The translations under genes and the position numbers were made by a program. Positions 59,150 to 64,000 of a stretch of DNA of 64,000 nucleotides are shown in pieces. Each line of letters opens with the position of its first letter. Within the stretch, counting starts at the first letter, position 1. Origin of the DNA: Alphaproteobacteria bacterium (lineage in GTDB: Bacteria; Pseudomonadota; Alphaproteobacteria; Micavibrionales; Micavibrionaceae); NCBI GenBank assembly GCA_018399685.1, contig JAGYOK010000002.1:1-64000 (forward strand). Direction: 5' to 3'. The notes below the pieces were generated by a model. The model saw nothing but the letters and a program-made list of their open reading frames with translations, was not told the origin of the DNA and searched no databases.

Positions 59150-59226
59150 CGGAACGTAGCGCAGCCTGGTAGCGCACTTGCATGGGGTGCAAGGGGTCGG
59201 AGGTTCAAATCCTCTCGTTCCGACCA
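59150..59226 (+). tRNA. tRNA-Pro (anticodon GGG)
   Basis: The cloverleaf can be written: acceptor CGGAACG/CGTTCCG, D-arm with GCGCAGCCTGGTAGCGC, anticodon stem CTTGC/GCAAG around loop ATGGGGT (GGG at the anticodon), T-arm with GGTTCAAATCC, discriminator A and encoded CCA at 59224-59226. It reads CCC and CCU proline codons. No T-run terminator is obvious downstream. The 3' end is a conceivable integration site, as the accessory genes begin just after it. Confidence 0.95.
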
Positions 59227-59448
59227 TTAAAACAAGGGTATATACCGGAGACATGGTATACAGCACTCTCCCCCATGCCATCTGAAACTCTCCTCAAATG
59301 AAAAAAGTGTGTACTATGCCTTCAGGATGTTCAATCTGTTTTCTGGCAAGAAAAACCAGAGACGCAAAGCAAGTATTGGTTGGATATACTGACGTTCCAT
59401 GGAAAGAAATTTCAGGCATTGATTTTGAGATTAAGGGAGGGAGAAAAA
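59227..59448. other. Gap between tRNA-Pro and the DUF4406 gene
   Basis: 222 bases. A small overlapping frame from ATG 59298 (62 codons) is possible but has no ribosome site and no recognised family. TACCGGAGACAT at 59243-59254 recurs as TACCGGAGGCAT at 59810-59821, on the other side of the next gene. GGGAGGGAG before 59449 is a strong ribosome site. Confidence 0.45.
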
Positions 59449-59799
59449 ATGACACAAGAACTGATTATGATCGCCGGGCCATATAGCTCTGGGACGAAAA
59501 ACAAGGAAGAGCGAGCGGCCAATCTTGAGGTTTTGAACAAGGCTGCACTGGAAGTTTTTAAGAAAGGCCATATACCGTTAATTGGTGTCAATAATGCTCT
59601 TCCCCTTATCGAAATCGCAGGAGAAGAGGCCTTTGATGAAATTATGATGCCCATATCTATCGCTCTGGCGGAACGATGCGATAGTTGTTTGCGTGTAGGT
59701 GGCGCTTCCAATGGCGCGGATCAGGAAGTCGAAAACTTCCGTAAACGGGGGAAGAATGTGTATTTTGATGTGGTAGAAATTTCAGAGGAAAAGCGCTGA
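59449..59799 (+). CDS. DUF4406-type nucleoside 2-deoxyribosyltransferase-like protein
   Basis: 116 residues from the ATG at 59449, directly after GGGAGGGAGAAAAA. The start ELIMIAGPYSSGT is the Rossmann-like loop of the DUF4406/nucleoside deoxyribosyltransferase fold; later features are AALEVFKKGHIPLIGVNNAL and DSCLRVGGASNGADQEVENF, with the final strand GKNVYFDVVEI. Such small proteins act on nucleotides or are found in phages and mobile regions; substrate unknown. It lies first after tRNA-Pro. Confidence 0.72.
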   Translation: MTQELIMIAGPYSSGTKNKEERAANLEVLNKAALEVFKKGHIPLIGVNNALPLIEIAGEEAFDEIMMPISIALAERCDSCLRVGGASNGADQEVENFRKRGKNVYFDVVEISEEKR

Positions 59800-60082: not shown

Positions 60083-61282
60083 GTGTGGGGGTATGGTAAT
60101 TTGGTAAATAATTACGGCTTTATAAAGCGTTTTATCTTTGAAGGTAAACACAACCGATCCGGCGGCTTTTCATTAATAGAAATGGCGTTGGCACTAATGT
60201 TGATCGGTGTTGTTACAGCCGGTTTATTAAACCAGTACAACACATATATAAAGAAAAAACAGCATGAAGATACGAAGAATGTATTGTTCGATATAGACAG
60301 AGCTCTACAGGATTATGTTACCACATACGGTTATTATCCTTGCCCTGCAGATCAGTCAGTCCCTTATGGAGATCCTGATTATGGCGCAAGCGTTAATAAC
60401 TGTATACATCCCTCTGCAGTCCCCCCTTGTCATGGCCTCGGCCAGGGCATATGCCGTACAACCGGCGGCCCGGTTGTTTTAATTGGCGGCGTTCCTTTTA
60501 AAGAATTACATATGGGCGGGGAAGTTGCCTATGATGGCTGGAAAAACCGTATAACCTATGCCGTTAGCCGTATTTTAGCACCCACATCACCGATTATTAC
60601 CCCGTTGCCTAATGGGATAATCACAGTAGAACAAACTGATTCTGTTGGAACGGTTATTAATAATGCGCAATATGTGCTGGTCGCACCAGGGTCAAAGGGA
60701 GCTGGTGGTTTTAACAAGAACGGCACAATATCCAGACCATGCAATCTTTCACAAAGAGAGGGTGAAAATTGCGATCAGGATAATGTTTTTGCCGCAAACC
60801 CTAATCGGAGATGGAGAAACGACGTCGAGGGGCCAAATTATTTTGATGATTATGTGTCATATAGGGAAGTCCCTGATACACCGGATTGGAGCGTTGAAGC
60901 TGCTACTCCCGATGATTTAAGATTTCGCTATGACCGGGTCGGTATTGGTGTAACGGACGCTGATCCCCGTACAGACTTGCACGTAGCGGGGGATATAAAA
61001 GTGGATGACTGGGCAAAAGCAGCCACCATTTGTAATGGCGACGCCAATCCTGCTACGGCAGAATGTTTCGACCCCGAGGCAATCGCAGGCAGCAAAACAG
61101 ATATGCGTTGCGATGCGGCTAATTCTTTGTATGAAAATCAGGCTATGATCGGCGTTGCAAAACAGAAGGTCAAATGTAAATTAACTGTTCAACCGACGGC
61201 AGCGACACCTGCTCCATGCCCTACAGGCTATCTTGCTGTAGGGTTTTTAGCCAATGGTGCGTTGGACTGTCAAATATTTTGA
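60083..61282 (+). CDS. Prepilin-like protein 1 with fibre-like C terminus
   Basis: 399 residues from GTG 60083, or 393 from TTG 60101, which has GGGGG nine bases upstream. The class III/pseudopilin signal is RSGGFSLIEMALALMLIG: cleavage after Gly28, Phe29 at +1, Glu33 at +5, then a hydrophobic helix. The globular part starts with DYVTTYGYYPCPADQSVPYG and GAGGFNKNGTISRPC. The C-terminal third has VGIGVTDADPRTDLHVAGDI, similar to stretches in phage tail fibres and adhesins, and a Cys pattern ECFDPEAIAG, DMRCDAAN, KCKL. It probably needs a PilD-type peptidase; function unknown. Nine bases later its paralogue begins. Confidence 0.82.
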   Translation: MWGYGNLVNNYGFIKRFIFEGKHNRSGGFSLIEMALALMLIGVVTAGLLNQYNTYIKKKQHEDTKNVLFDIDRALQDYVTTYGYYPCPADQSVPYGDPDYGASVNNCIHPSAVPPCHGLGQGICRTTGGPVVLIGGVPFKELHMGGEVAYDGWKNRITYAVSRILAPTSPIITPLPNGIITVEQTDSVGTVINNAQYVLVAPGSKGAGGFNKNGTISRPCNLSQREGENCDQDNVFAANPNRRWRNDVEGPNYFDDYVSYREVPDTPDWSVEAATPDDLRFRYDRVGIGVTDADPRTDLHVAGDIKVDDWAKAATICNGDANPATAECFDPEAIAGSKTDMRCDAANSLYENQAMIGVAKQKVKCKLTVQPTAATPAPCPTGYLAVGFLANGALDCQIF

Positions 61283-61291
61283 GGTGGCTAT

Positions 61292-63505
61292 ATGCGTAAT
61301 TTATTGAAAACTATAAAGGGATATACCCTGATTGAAACTGCCATGGTTCTGGTTATGACCGGAATGATGATAGGCGCTTTCGCATCGGTATACACCATAT
61401 ACGTTAAAAACAGGGATTTCTCAGAAACACAGGCGTCTGTGAAAAGAGTGTCTAGTAACCTTGCTGCCTTTGTCAATCTTTACGGCAGATATCCTTGCCC
61501 CTCCCAGCCTAATCTAGGGCGCGGTCAGCCCGGTCATGGAATGGAGCTTTGTGCTCCAAATAACGATTCTATTAACCCGCTTCCGGCTGCCGGAAATTGT
61601 TTTGAATATAGCTCTGCGAACAGCTCTTTAACAGAAGGCATTTGTGTAGAGGAGAGTACAGCCGCTGTGGTTGACAAGCGCGTGTTAAGAGGTACTTTGC
61701 CGTTTAAGGCTCTTAATATGTCTGAAGAGCAAACGATAGACCAATACGGAAACAAATTAACCTACGCTGTAACCTACAGCATGACAGATAAAGATACGTT
61801 TTCTATCAAGCCCGGAGAGGCAGGAGCAGTTATTTTAGTTGATGATAACGATAATGAAGTTGCCGGAGGCACAAACGCAGCGCATTTCTACGTGTTTAGT
61901 TCTGGTAAGAATGGCGCTGGTGCATATACTCGCAACGGTGTGTTGTCTTTACGATGCCCGTCATCCTCATCACAGGAAAACGAAAACTGCGATACTTCGG
62001 ATGGTGATGGTATATATCGTCACGCAGCCAAAACAGAGCGGCAAGGCACAAATTTTTTCGACGATCAGGGGTTTTATAAGGCTGGTCTCAATATACAAAA
62101 ATGGGAATATCCTGATCCGGACTCGGATGATGTTACTCATAAACTGCCCGGCAAGCTTGTTATCGGCGCTCCTATCGCTGCGGATCTTACAAATGCCAGC
62201 AAAGTTGAAGTGAAGGGCAATGTGCTCTCCGACGGTGGTGTTTTAATGTCAGACAAGATTTGTCATACAACAGCAGGACGTTCAGATATGGATCCGGCTT
62301 GCTTCACATCTGAAATGATTGCAGGCCAGCTTGCTGAAGGAGAAGGGCTTCAATGTCCGCGTGATGATCCCGACGGTGCAGGTCAGTATATGGTTGGTAT
62401 CCAAAATGGCCGTGTTATTTGTGAGGATGAAATCTTTATCTCCTGTGCCGGAGGTACATTTGTTAGAGAAATAAAGCCTGATGGTACAGTAGTTTGCAAT
62501 TCTCCACCGCCTGCGTCATGTGCACCATTGACATTAACGCTTTGCGGGGAAGATATAACAGTCGGAGCGCGTGTTCACGGAGATTACGGATATTTTATCA
62601 CCGGAACATGCTATGAAAAGGACACACCGACTTCGCCTCTTGTAGAGGAAGATTGTCCTTTATATGGTCGGCGATATCTATGTAACGACGGAAACTGGCG
62701 TTACTCATACTATTGGAGGCAGTCTTATCCATGTACTTGTACAGAGCAATACCAGACTATTGATAATGGCCCGTGCCCTGTCGGATATACAGGAAGAAAG
62801 GAGCGCACAAGAAAGTATTTTTGCCCTCAAAGAAGATGGTATTGGCAGGGATCAACATCAAGTGAAGGATGTGTATGTGATGATGGTGCGCCCAAGGATG
62901 TACCAAGGCGTTGCCCTCCTGGCCTCACGGGCAGACCTAAAGACCGTTATACTATGGATTGTACAACGGAAACATGGATTTATCAGGGGCCAAGCCCGGA
63001 TTCAATTCCTTGTACCTGTCCATTTAATCCGGACACCGTAAATACTATAGGATGTGATGATGGCTTTTCAGGAACACATGAAGTCGTAACAAAGTGGGTG
63101 TGTCCTGACGGGGTAGGCGGTCCTACAGCCGGTTTTTGGGATACAGCCAATAATATAACTATGAACACATGTGAATGTGACAGCTCATATTTTGAGTATG
63201 AAACAGATCCATGTCCTCCCGGCGAAACAGGGACAATCCAGATGAGGTATAAGAAGCCATGGATATGTGATTCTGCAACCGAAGGACACTTTGGCCCTCG
63301 CGTTTTAGATGTAAACGATTGTGTGCCGATAGTGCCGCCCATATGTCATTGGGAATCCACTTCCTCTCCCGTGGAGACGCCTGAGCCTATTGGTAACGGC
63401 CGCATCGGAGACACTTGCGAATGTCACGTGGAGACGGCTCCGGCTGGTTGTTACACGGGAGGAAGCGGTGACGCTCAATATTATAGAACCTGCACATGTA
63501 AATAG
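61292..63505 (+). CDS. Prepilin-like protein 2 with cysteine-rich C-terminal repeats
   Basis: 737 residues. The prepilin signal is IKGYTLIETAMVLVMTGMMI: cleavage after Gly10, Tyr11 at +1, Glu15 at +5. The globular region shares NLYGRYPCPSQPNLGRGQPG, PFKALNMSEEQ, YVFSSGKNGAGAYTRNG-like positions with protein 1, and the fibre-like part (KVEVKGNVLSDGG) is followed by the same Cys pattern ACFTSEMIAG. From about residue 455 the protein is a cysteine-rich repeat array ending at about residue 725, with CxC at residues 481, 527, 574 and 627. Repeats have CPxGxTG, Trp/Tyr and a terminal CxC. Start ATG follows GAGGTGGCTAT. A surface or pilus-tip adhesin is likely; none is proven. Confidence 0.82.
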   Translation: MRNLLKTIKGYTLIETAMVLVMTGMMIGAFASVYTIYVKNRDFSETQASVKRVSSNLAAFVNLYGRYPCPSQPNLGRGQPGHGMELCAPNNDSINPLPAAGNCFEYSSANSSLTEGICVEESTAAVVDKRVLRGTLPFKALNMSEEQTIDQYGNKLTYAVTYSMTDKDTFSIKPGEAGAVILVDDNDNEVAGGTNAAHFYVFSSGKNGAGAYTRNGVLSLRCPSSSSQENENCDTSDGDGIYRHAAKTERQGTNFFDDQGFYKAGLNIQKWEYPDPDSDDVTHKLPGKLVIGAPIAADLTNASKVEVKGNVLSDGGVLMSDKICHTTAGRSDMDPACFTSEMIAGQLAEGEGLQCPRDDPDGAGQYMVGIQNGRVICEDEIFISCAGGTFVREIKPDGTVVCNSPPPASCAPLTLTLCGEDITVGARVHGDYGYFITGTCYEKDTPTSPLVEEDCPLYGRRYLCNDGNWRYSYYWRQSYPCTCTEQYQTIDNGPCPVGYTGRKERTRKYFCPQRRWYWQGSTSSEGCVCDDGAPKDVPRRCPPGLTGRPKDRYTMDCTTETWIYQGPSPDSIPCTCPFNPDTVNTIGCDDGFSGTHEVVTKWVCPDGVGGPTAGFWDTANNITMNTCECDSSYFEYETDPCPPGETGTIQMRYKKPWICDSATEGHFGPRVLDVNDCVPIVPPICHWESTSSPVETPEPIGNGRIGDTCECHVETAPAGCYTGGSGDAQYYRTCTCK
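62652..63342 (+). repeat. Coding repeats: cysteine-rich units of prepilin-like protein 2
   Basis: The encoded units run about 46-53 residues. Their boundaries can be set at the CxC or Cys positions 481, 527, 574, 627 and 677. Shared core: CP, short spacer, G-x-TG, hydrophobic residues with Trp or Tyr, another Cys and a closing CxC. The DNA itself is diverged; repetition is clear only at protein level. Confidence 0.75.
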
Positions 63506-63513
63506 GGTATAAA

Positions 63514-64000
63514 ATGAAACATTATAAAAAGTCTGTGTATGGTTTTACTTTGGTGGAACTGGCTATCGTTATTTTGATTGGGGGACTTTTCCTGTCCGCA
63601 ATCGGACATTCGTATAAAATATATATGGAGAAGTATTTTTACAATGTTAATAACTACCGGCTGCAACAAACGCGTGACTCTATATTGCTGTTTCAGGCAG
63701 GCGCTGGCCGTCTTCCATGTCCCGCCGATGCCACTTTAGACCCCTCCGATGCTGGGTATGGCTGGGAGGTCTGCCCCCCTGCCGGCGTTTGTGCGCCGGG
63801 TATAGAGTGCGTTGACGGGCGTGATGTTGATGGTGATGGAACTCCTGAACGTGTCCTTATAGGCGCTGTGCCGCATAATTCGATTCTGGACTTATTTGAA
63901 AACGGCCCTTTTGCGGATACGGCCAAATTTCCCGATTTTGCCGCTTACAGCGTAATAGATGCATACAGGACAAAACTTAGATATGCCGTCACGGAAGGAC
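63514..64000 (+). CDS. Prepilin-like protein 3, cut by the window end
   Basis: At least 162 codons, open to the last base. The start ATG 63514 follows AATAGGGTATAAA, nine bases after the previous stop. The signal is VYGFTLVELAIVILIGGLFL: cleavage after Gly10, Phe11 at +1, Glu15 at +5. The region FQAGAGRLPCPADATLDPSD matches the PCP-region of proteins 1 and 2, and LRYAVTEG resembles their ITYAVS and LTYAVT positions. This suggests a third paralogue in the same operon; the C-terminal fate is unknown. Confidence 0.85.
   Translation, partial: MKHYKKSVYGFTLVELAIVILIGGLFLSAIGHSYKIYMEKYFYNVNNYRLQQTRDSILLFQAGAGRLPCPADATLDPSDAGYGWEVCPPAGVCAPGIECVDGRDVDGDGTPERVLIGAVPHNSILDLFENGPFADTAKFPDFAAYSVIDAYRTKLRYAVTEG

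Follow-up and report, generated by a model that had tools for sequence, protein, structure and literature searches.

At the right end of the window –the 64,000 bases analyzed here, which are the first of a 118,579-base contig– three tandem genes on the forward strand encode large modular class III prepilins, which we call A, B, and C. Gene A (60083..61282; 399 amino acids, aa) begins with GTG, an in-frame TTG at 60101 being an alternative start, and gene B (61292..63505; 737 aa) and gene C (63514..64000 and beyond the window end; 421 aa) begin with ATG. We finished C by extending the contig rightwards: its stop is at contig position 64779, and the complete gene (L006:5515-6780 in the extended contig) ends ~0.8 kb past the window. 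The three proteins are a conserved three-pilin set that most likely forms the tip complex of a mannose-sensitive haemagglutinin (MSHA)-type pilus in Micavibrionales.

A preliminary description of this DNA had claimed three tandem large prepilin-like proteins with class III signals and nine-base gaps. Open reading frames (ORFs), motifs, and N_methyl profiles bear out the proteins and their signals; of the gaps, the A-B spacer has nine bases and the B-C spacer eight. The prepilin motifs are G/FSLIE in A, G/YTLIE in B, and G/FTLVE in C. Pfam N_methyl was above its cut-off (21.2 bits) in A (23.3 bits) and C (22.3 bits), and window B gave zero Pfam matches at E 0.1 and an N_methyl score of 15.3 bits, under the cut-off, in the genome search. 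With scores in A, C, and homologues of all three proteins, the signals did not turn out to be other than prepilin-like in profile searches, as the same description had considered. A was further delimited by alignment, family profile, and an AlphaFold model, and B by alignment, family profile, and model. To judge from their sequences, A, B, and C are class III prepilins.

The same genome (91.95% complete) contains a second A-B-C set on contig C25, with proteins of 442, 839, and 469 aa. The alignment of all six paralogues starts at the prepilin signal and runs through the C-terminal cysteines; past this shared stretch, both B proteins have a long additional cysteine-rich tail. The PCP and later YAV segments, noticed before in the three window proteins, hold in all six (VP replaces CP in one), together with ENCD and DD...W. 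When 65 proteins encoded at 22 loci were placed in a tree, in which several deep forks are unresolved, the long members formed three groups, usually with one of each per cassette; genome G016 has two B copies. Family profile scores over further loci agree with the tree, and on this sequence basis A, B, and C are classed as three orthologous families. The order is A-B-C within the genus, and B comes last in others. B is the largest family, mostly of 605-974 aa, with shorter members of 487 aa (L123) and of 544 and 577 aa (L126). In some genomes, including G033, the long set is replaced by a short type, whose members have few distal cysteines and mostly 290-540 aa.

The pattern G-x-[STAD]-[LIV]-x-E fits 59 of the 65 family proteins; some of the six misfits reflect start choice or the strict pattern, and two have Gln or Ala in place of Glu5. 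Among alignment members, N_methyl was found at E<=0.01 in 27/38 A, 31/35 B, and 31/36 C proteins, window B not being among the 31.

Pilin module and distal modules

The pilin module of A extends from the cleavage Gly (residue 28) to residue ~262 (60164..60868, forward strand), as delimited with the AlphaFold model and VIA-align. The model (mean predicted local distance difference test score, pLDDT, 78.8) presents a helix at residues 31-82 and a globular domain to ~262, so A is predicted to be a long N-terminal helix followed by a pseudopilin-like pilin domain. VIA-align placed GspG/EpsG/PulG on top (Z 5.8-6.3; for 3gn9, Z 6.3, root-mean-square deviation 2.2, 89 aligned), followed by CofA (Z 5.2) and PilE (Z 3.5). 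Among the matches listed, 11/11 rows were pilins or pseudopilins, with Z from 6.3 to 3.0 and all below 8. The distal third of the A model has low confidence, which fits a part that might fold only within a trimer. For B, the pilin module covers residues 10 to ~264 (61319..62083, forward strand; AlphaFold model mdcdca9bef060, mean pLDDT 72.3, and profile). The B profile matches solved pilins across the helix region, and VIA-align of the B pilin module gave no pilin or pseudopilin row.

Onto this pilin module, the family adds non-pilin modules: a fibre motif and cysteine domains and, in homologues, a lectin and an S74 domain. In A, a motif of the tail-fibre/MAT type, VGIGVTDADPRTDL, lies at 60938..60979 (forward strand), located by the motif scan and by the comparison of the A-homologue profile with Bdellovibrio Bd2133; in C, the scan found VGMGVEVPQAKL past the window end. 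The profile of 38 A proteins matches Bd2133 (PDB 8ond) at E 2e-8 and 8ojn, 8oml, and 8ol4 at E 0.0013-0.0023, and that of 36 C proteins matches 8ond at E 4.8e-11. Through these matches to 8ond, 8ol4, 8oml, and 8ojn, the A and C profiles present the MAT capping-loop motif, and the published capping-loop motif, in the part of the source available to us, resembles that of A and C (PMC10769870). Past the pilin domain, the motif is present in 29/37 C, 19/40 A, 6/46 B, and 5/18 short-type proteins, against 63/7050 in a shuffled control; the scan reports at most one motif per protein, and the chimera of G012 described below has several. Many unrelated bacteria have the motif as well, and 23/38 loci matched over that stretch only. 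Thus, the fibre motifs suggest a fibre-type trimer, and they are not evidence of kinship with predators.

Both A and B continue with cysteines. A ends in a six-cysteine domain, Cys317 to Cys396 (61031..61270, forward strand), which holds six Cys after residue 280, in columns that are invariant in the six paralogues; proteins of the family usually have such a domain. The tail of B (residues ~381 to 737; 62432..63502, forward strand) is cysteine-rich and, from sequence and model, beta-rich, with 30 Cys and six CxC. Pfam, PDB sequence, Foldseek, and VIA searches gave no useful match for this tail, the structural ones being made with the full-length model only, so that a known fold may remain in it; in the B alignment, Pfam families other than N_methyl were not found at E 0.01.

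Two homologues illustrate module swapping. The A protein of G038 (L131:8612-10192) has a SUEL lectin domain inside its pilin module (38.9 bits, cut-off 31.4), the only one among the 38 A members, and in this genome the triad directly follows the major pilin gene. In G012, N_methyl and the pilin module are combined in one chimera of 1007 aa (L141:8563-11586) with several fibre motifs and with an S74 chaperone (34.9 bits against a cut-off of 22) that has the SDARLK sequence. S74 was found at 42 places in 26/58 genomes. As a general part of the family it is unsupported: among the 30 of 42 S74 loci examined, with short flanks, the G012 protein is the only assured fusion; another S74 locus, L206 of G049, gave a weak family profile match (19.1 bits). 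A phage origin was also discarded, since PHROGs matches were weak, with one tail fibre matching residues 304-336 of the C protein on C25 (E 0.0054).

Pilus machines and the place of the triad

The preliminary description expected that PilB/PilC/PilD-like genes might lie past the right end of the window. Reading the translations, we found no pilus machinery genes in the 13 kb right of C; they are on contig C15. There, a PilB that carries an MshEN domain is encoded together with PilC and a prepilin peptidase, and the cluster also has two ATPases of the PilT/PilU family, a secretin like MshL, and a pilin of 224 aa. This is the make-up of an MSHA-type cluster (MshL-type secretin, MshE-type ATPase, platform protein, PilT, and prepilin peptidase). 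The secretin scored 214.5 bits with the MshL equivalog, under its cut-off of 250.2, and three C15 proteins called MshI/J/K-like by position gave zero Pfam matches.

We searched 58 genomes, our own included, with the six-protein family profile, the secretin, PilB, and the platform protein of a second machine on contig C1. The family profile matched 55/58 genomes at E 0.001; an ordinary major pilin scores up to 48 bits with it, and weak genome matches may reflect that pilin. The MshL-type secretin reached at least 154 bits in 51/58 genomes and 123 bits or less in the other seven (G037, G041, G042, G043, G049, G052, and G055). Family matches followed this division: 47/51 secretin-positive genomes matched at E 3.1e-18 or better, the remaining four (G008, G046, G047, and G054) were weaker (E 2.7e-13 to 4.4e-16) and may hold the major pilin only, and the seven secretin-negative genomes gave E 9.2e-6 or worse, or none. 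PilB of C15 was found at E<=1e-150 in 46/58 genomes, being absent from the seven secretin-negative genomes and from G008, G009, G027, G031, and G053.

Family genes are also physically linked to the pilus genes. They lie in, or directly end, the pilus cluster in five genomes (G038, G039, G050, G053, and G056): in G038 and G050 the major pilin is followed on its own strand by C, A, and B, in that order, and in G039 the major pilin and PilB are separated by two short-type genes. In the G047 cluster (L189), no triad was found behind the major pilin.

For the prepilin inventory, we took N_methyl matches at E<=1 in 15 chosen genomes (our own, G000, and 14 relatives) and compared their places with those of family and cluster genes. 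In all 15, every above-cutoff match was an MSHA-cluster pilin (one or two per genome, 1.8-5.4 kb from the secretin match) or a family member. Nine genomes (G001, G004, G010, G017, G018, G020, G022, G028, and G044) contain A, B, C, and a single cluster pilin, with nothing further at E<=1. Our genome has one cluster pilin, both A-B-C sets, and a 12-aa frame; G006, one cluster pilin, B, C, and a sub-cutoff frame, with A missed; G021, one cluster pilin, A-B-C, and four more family genes (three divergent); G033, one cluster pilin, a short set, and one more; G034, two cluster pilins, A-B-C, and one more; and G051, two cluster pilins and A-B-C. This suggests a simple type IV pilus in which three large modular subunits may be the only minor pilins.

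On the co-occurrence in 58 genomes, the linkage in five, and the inventory in 15, and on the helix and pseudopilin domain of the A model, the fibre motifs, and the module swapping (SUEL, S74), we consider it likely, with good though not full confidence, that the MSHA-type type IV pilus of contig C15 has A, B, and C as its minor (tip) pilins. As the preliminary description had it, they are class III prepilins of one family, most likely displayed through a pilus-type pathway. Their tip location, and a need for them in assembly or adhesion, would follow from the small prepilin set and the linkage. From the motifs, the C15 prepilin peptidase would cleave the leaders after Gly. One pilin module of each kind would then co-assemble, and together they would prime or cap the filament, built from the single major pilin whose gene adjoins that of the MshL-type secretin; gene content, co-occurrence, and linkage suggest extension by PilB/PilC and retraction by PilT/PilU. 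At the tip, the tail-fibre-like segment and the six-cysteine domains would project and bind a surface, with the cysteine-rich tail of B as the largest exposed module. This last step draws on the architecture, the lectin-bearing homologue, and the analogy with the Kil tips of Myxococcus and PilA/B/C of Streptococcus sanguinis. The complex is probably adhesive; the adhesin role proposed in the preliminary description is still deduced, now with one lectin-bearing homologue (G038 A) on its side. The C25 cassette would be the genus-syntenic tip set, and the window cassette a second, divergent one near tRNA-Pro.

Several observations weigh against the tip assignment. Cleavage, co-assembly, tip position, adhesion, and a prey target are steps that we infer. 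The two cassettes of our genome and its MSHA-type cluster are on different contigs, and outside the five linked genomes no family gene lies <10 kb from the secretin among the matches listed, in a set with many fragmented assemblies. The triads of G053 and G056 are encoded on the strand opposite to that of their cluster neighbours. Kinship inflates the co-occurrence, the seven negative genomes representing three families (f2, f6, and f7), and 'MshL-type' is a best-match name, since the curated cut-off of TIGR02519 was reached in 0/58 genomes. N_methyl misses some real prepilins, such as A of G006, so small minor pilins may have been overlooked. On the structural side, Foldseek gave zero matches at E<=0.001 for the A or B models, the profile of 35 B proteins did not match Bdellovibrio fibres in the PDB sequence search, and the fibre motif is missing in 40/46 B and, by the pattern used, in 21/40 A proteins.

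Other roles were weighed against the same data. The MSHA-type machine could be a secretion piston, with the triad pushing or loading exoproteins as pseudopilins. In its favour, the A module is most like major pseudopilins of the type II secretion system (T2SS; Z 5.8-6.3), TcpB/CofB tip pilins carry secreted proteins (in the available part of PMC9565799), and large proteins flank two short-type triads (L058 and L072); we nevertheless find this role unlikely. The fold likeness of A is below Z 8 and may be a common arrangement only, a subunit of 400-740 aa with fibre motifs is unlike pseudopilins, and the cluster has two PilT/PilU-family ATPases, which are untypical of T2SS. Type IV pili commonly serve DNA uptake, and the triad could tip a competence pilus that binds DNA rather than cells, an idea we rate slightly lower still: the SUEL lectin homologue and the fibre motifs would favour glycan or surface binding.

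Two further alternatives seem to us quite improbable, both to a similar degree. One is assembly by another machine, and the genome does have an R64/type IVb-like one on contig C1 (L022:5471-15096) and further T2SSE/T2SSF places, which we took for Tad and similar systems. However, the C1 platform protein, found in 42/58 genomes, is missing in 14/51 secretin-positive genomes and present in 5/7 negatives, and no family member was found in region L022. The two proteins beside the C1 machine (244 and 259 aa, hydrophobic starts GNVLF and GSALV) gave zero Pfam matches at E 0.001. By these distributions, the MSHA-type pilus, and not the C1 machine, is the most likely partner of the family. The other is that A, B, and C are surface proteins with a prepilin signal, cleaved but not built into a filament; the large distal parts and the location of both own-genome cassettes among housekeeping genes would suit it. 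Against it, they are the sole above-cutoff prepilins besides the cluster pilins in the 15 genomes, and the five linked genomes have family genes inside the pilus cluster or next to it.

Beyond the tip assignment itself, a more specific model can be drawn, and we regard it as speculative and more doubtful than probable: A-B-C would be an obligate heterotrimeric, tail-fibre-like spike with three pilin helices at its base, one fibre strand set per chain, and the B tail as receptor-binding head, replacing small priming pilins. In Micavibrionales, lineages would swap such cassettes, each an interchangeable tip for prey recognition, much as with the Kil tips and the MAT fibres.

Site and origin of the window cassette

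The window cassette lies between tRNA-Pro (GGG; 59150..59226, forward strand, tRNA scan) and rplM/rpsI. Right of C we found, named from their translations, rplM, rpsI, gamma carbonic anhydrase, PhaC, GlpX, and RecJ. With housekeeping genes as neighbours, the cassette is not part of a gsp operon, so the ordinary type II secretion operon that the preliminary description had allowed for did not appear; GspG/GspH models scored far under cut-off and covered the N-terminal part only. A small ORF between tRNA-Pro and A (59380-59799) has a sub-cutoff DUF7768 match (16.8 bits, cut-off 26).

Sets syntenic with the one on C25 exist in G001, G003, G010, and G016. As a side observation, the C25 cassette (L007:9346-14639), syntenic in the genus, lies between cold-shock-like and GcrA-like genes, named from translations. 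A tree of 33 cassettes (1424 columns) has a clade of 14 that includes the C25 set and leaves out the window set (100/100), which led us to reject a recent duplication in place. In G001, tRNA-Pro directly adjoins rplM and the site is cassette-free; a tRNA scan of 10 rplM loci found tRNA-Pro within the short flanks of only two (L234 and L238). As the set is outside the clade and this G001 site is empty, the sequences indicate an old paralogue or an acquisition from outside the 14-cassette clade.

Base composition and repeats gave no sign of a recent insertion of the window cassette. Its G+C is 46.4% against 45.2% in the surroundings, a small difference, and a search of the 20 kb of L006 that allowed up to 6/22 mismatches found no repeat of the tRNA 3' end. 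Recombinational insertion at tRNA-Pro was set aside for want of a supporting repeat or G+C sign; the cassette-free G001 site shows only that the position differs.

Within the genus (8 genomes, 28 pairs each), median identity is 46-53% for the pilin module and 35-44% for the distal parts, and the C15 PilB has 70-81% identity over the aligned parts to the copies of nine genus members. A distal tip as the sole fast-evolving part fits only weakly, since the pilin module also diverges.

Some cassettes present particular arrangements. G016 has two nearly identical tandem B copies in one cassette (L073:7412-11764), and G023 (L124) has two tandem A-B-C cassettes, one alone grouping with the main clade. 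Directly beside the triad of G034, a protein has inverse-autotransporter and Laminin_G_3 matches (L055:12056-14446). Proteins of 400-991 aa lie beside the short-type triads of L058 (G033) and L072 (G014) and are possibly partners; four of five are in one similarity cluster, and the five tested had zero Pfam matches at E 0.01.

Known systems and wider distribution

The papers compared here were available to us in part, and the likenesses and differences apply to those parts. In Myxococcus xanthus, KilL/KilM/KilN are TadE/F/G-type pilins of a Tad pilus genetically linked to predation, with predicted disulfides (PMC12075869). As in our case, each cluster encodes three pilins, of which one is large and has a distal domain; cysteines are numerous, and a genome has several divergent paralogous clusters (PMC12075869). 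Compared by description only, A-B-C differ in being N_methyl-type class III prepilins of an MSHA-type pilus, and for them a heterotrimer is only deduced. PilA/PilB/PilC of S. sanguinis likewise graft an adhesive module onto a pilin module, and a few minor pilins are modelled as a tip complex, whereas their modules are vWA and a ConA-like lectin and the host is monoderm (PMC8179133, PMC9934059).

The likeness to Bdellovibrio MAT fibres such as Bd2133 consists of the VG-x-G...P...L motif, similar to the capping-loop consensus, and of the S74 chaperone in one homologue (G012) (PMC10769870). However, MATs have a signal peptide followed by a conserved beta-rich N-terminal domain of ~130 aa (PMC10769870), and A-B-C begin with a prepilin signal, a helix, and a pilin module, with the motif behind it; judged from those features, they lack the MAT start. 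TcpB and CofB are large three-domain minor tip pilins, trimeric and with beta-rich distal domains, but they are homotrimers of one gene (PMC9565799) and A-B-C are three co-encoded families. The PDB sequence search with the A, B, and C profiles at E 1 found no chains named TcpB or CofB.

Closer to our organism, Micavibrio aeruginosavorus was reported in 2011 to have three operons with eight prepilin-signal proteins and a suggested adhesion role, and four pili-related genes were highly expressed; GMV0902 and GMV0903 of strain ARL-13 are given there as genes of high expression (PMC3189940). The likeness is that of prepilin operons in the same lineage; the available part of that paper does not describe families, architecture, or a machine link, and that of PMC5430801 does not mention MSHA or minor pilins. 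Modular pilins comprise 264 architectures, pilin-S74 among them (PMC8179133), so we do not present the pilin-S74 fusion as a novelty. Among the literature titles surveyed, with subscription journals outside the survey, we found no earlier description of the A-B-C triad. Thus, of the suggestion in the preliminary description that this is an undescribed system, the triad itself stands, while prepilin operons in Micavibrio (PMC3189940) and modular pilins (PMC8179133) were known. As pilins with grafted modules, S74 fusions of pilins, and tips made of three pilins all have precedents, the A-B-C set adds a variant.

Micavibrio is a lineage of epibiotic predators, and the parts of the literature surveyed do not explain prey holding at the protein level. 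The triad and the major pilin offer a small candidate set for it, with one pilus machine and fibre-like motifs in common with Bdellovibrio, and the triad was found across most sampled families of the order. A photoheterotrophic member of the order has been proposed in the available part of PMC9933672; the order may thus include non-predators, and the ligand need not be prey. That the window organism is a predator with prey as the ligand is a conjecture.

The three-gene set was looked for within the order, and the helix-free pilin-domain profile more widely. This profile matched 42/387 genomes drawn from the class and 27/397 drawn from the phylum. Among the 37 matching class genomes that belong to other families than our own, 33 have just one match each, and these frames are 228-381 aa long. 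By this profile, the globular pilin domain is evidently not confined to Micavibrionales. Four genomes (G151, G314, G439, and G765) have several pilin-domain members each; G151, G314, and G765 are other Alphaproteobacteria, and some of the members are in frames of 550-850 aa.

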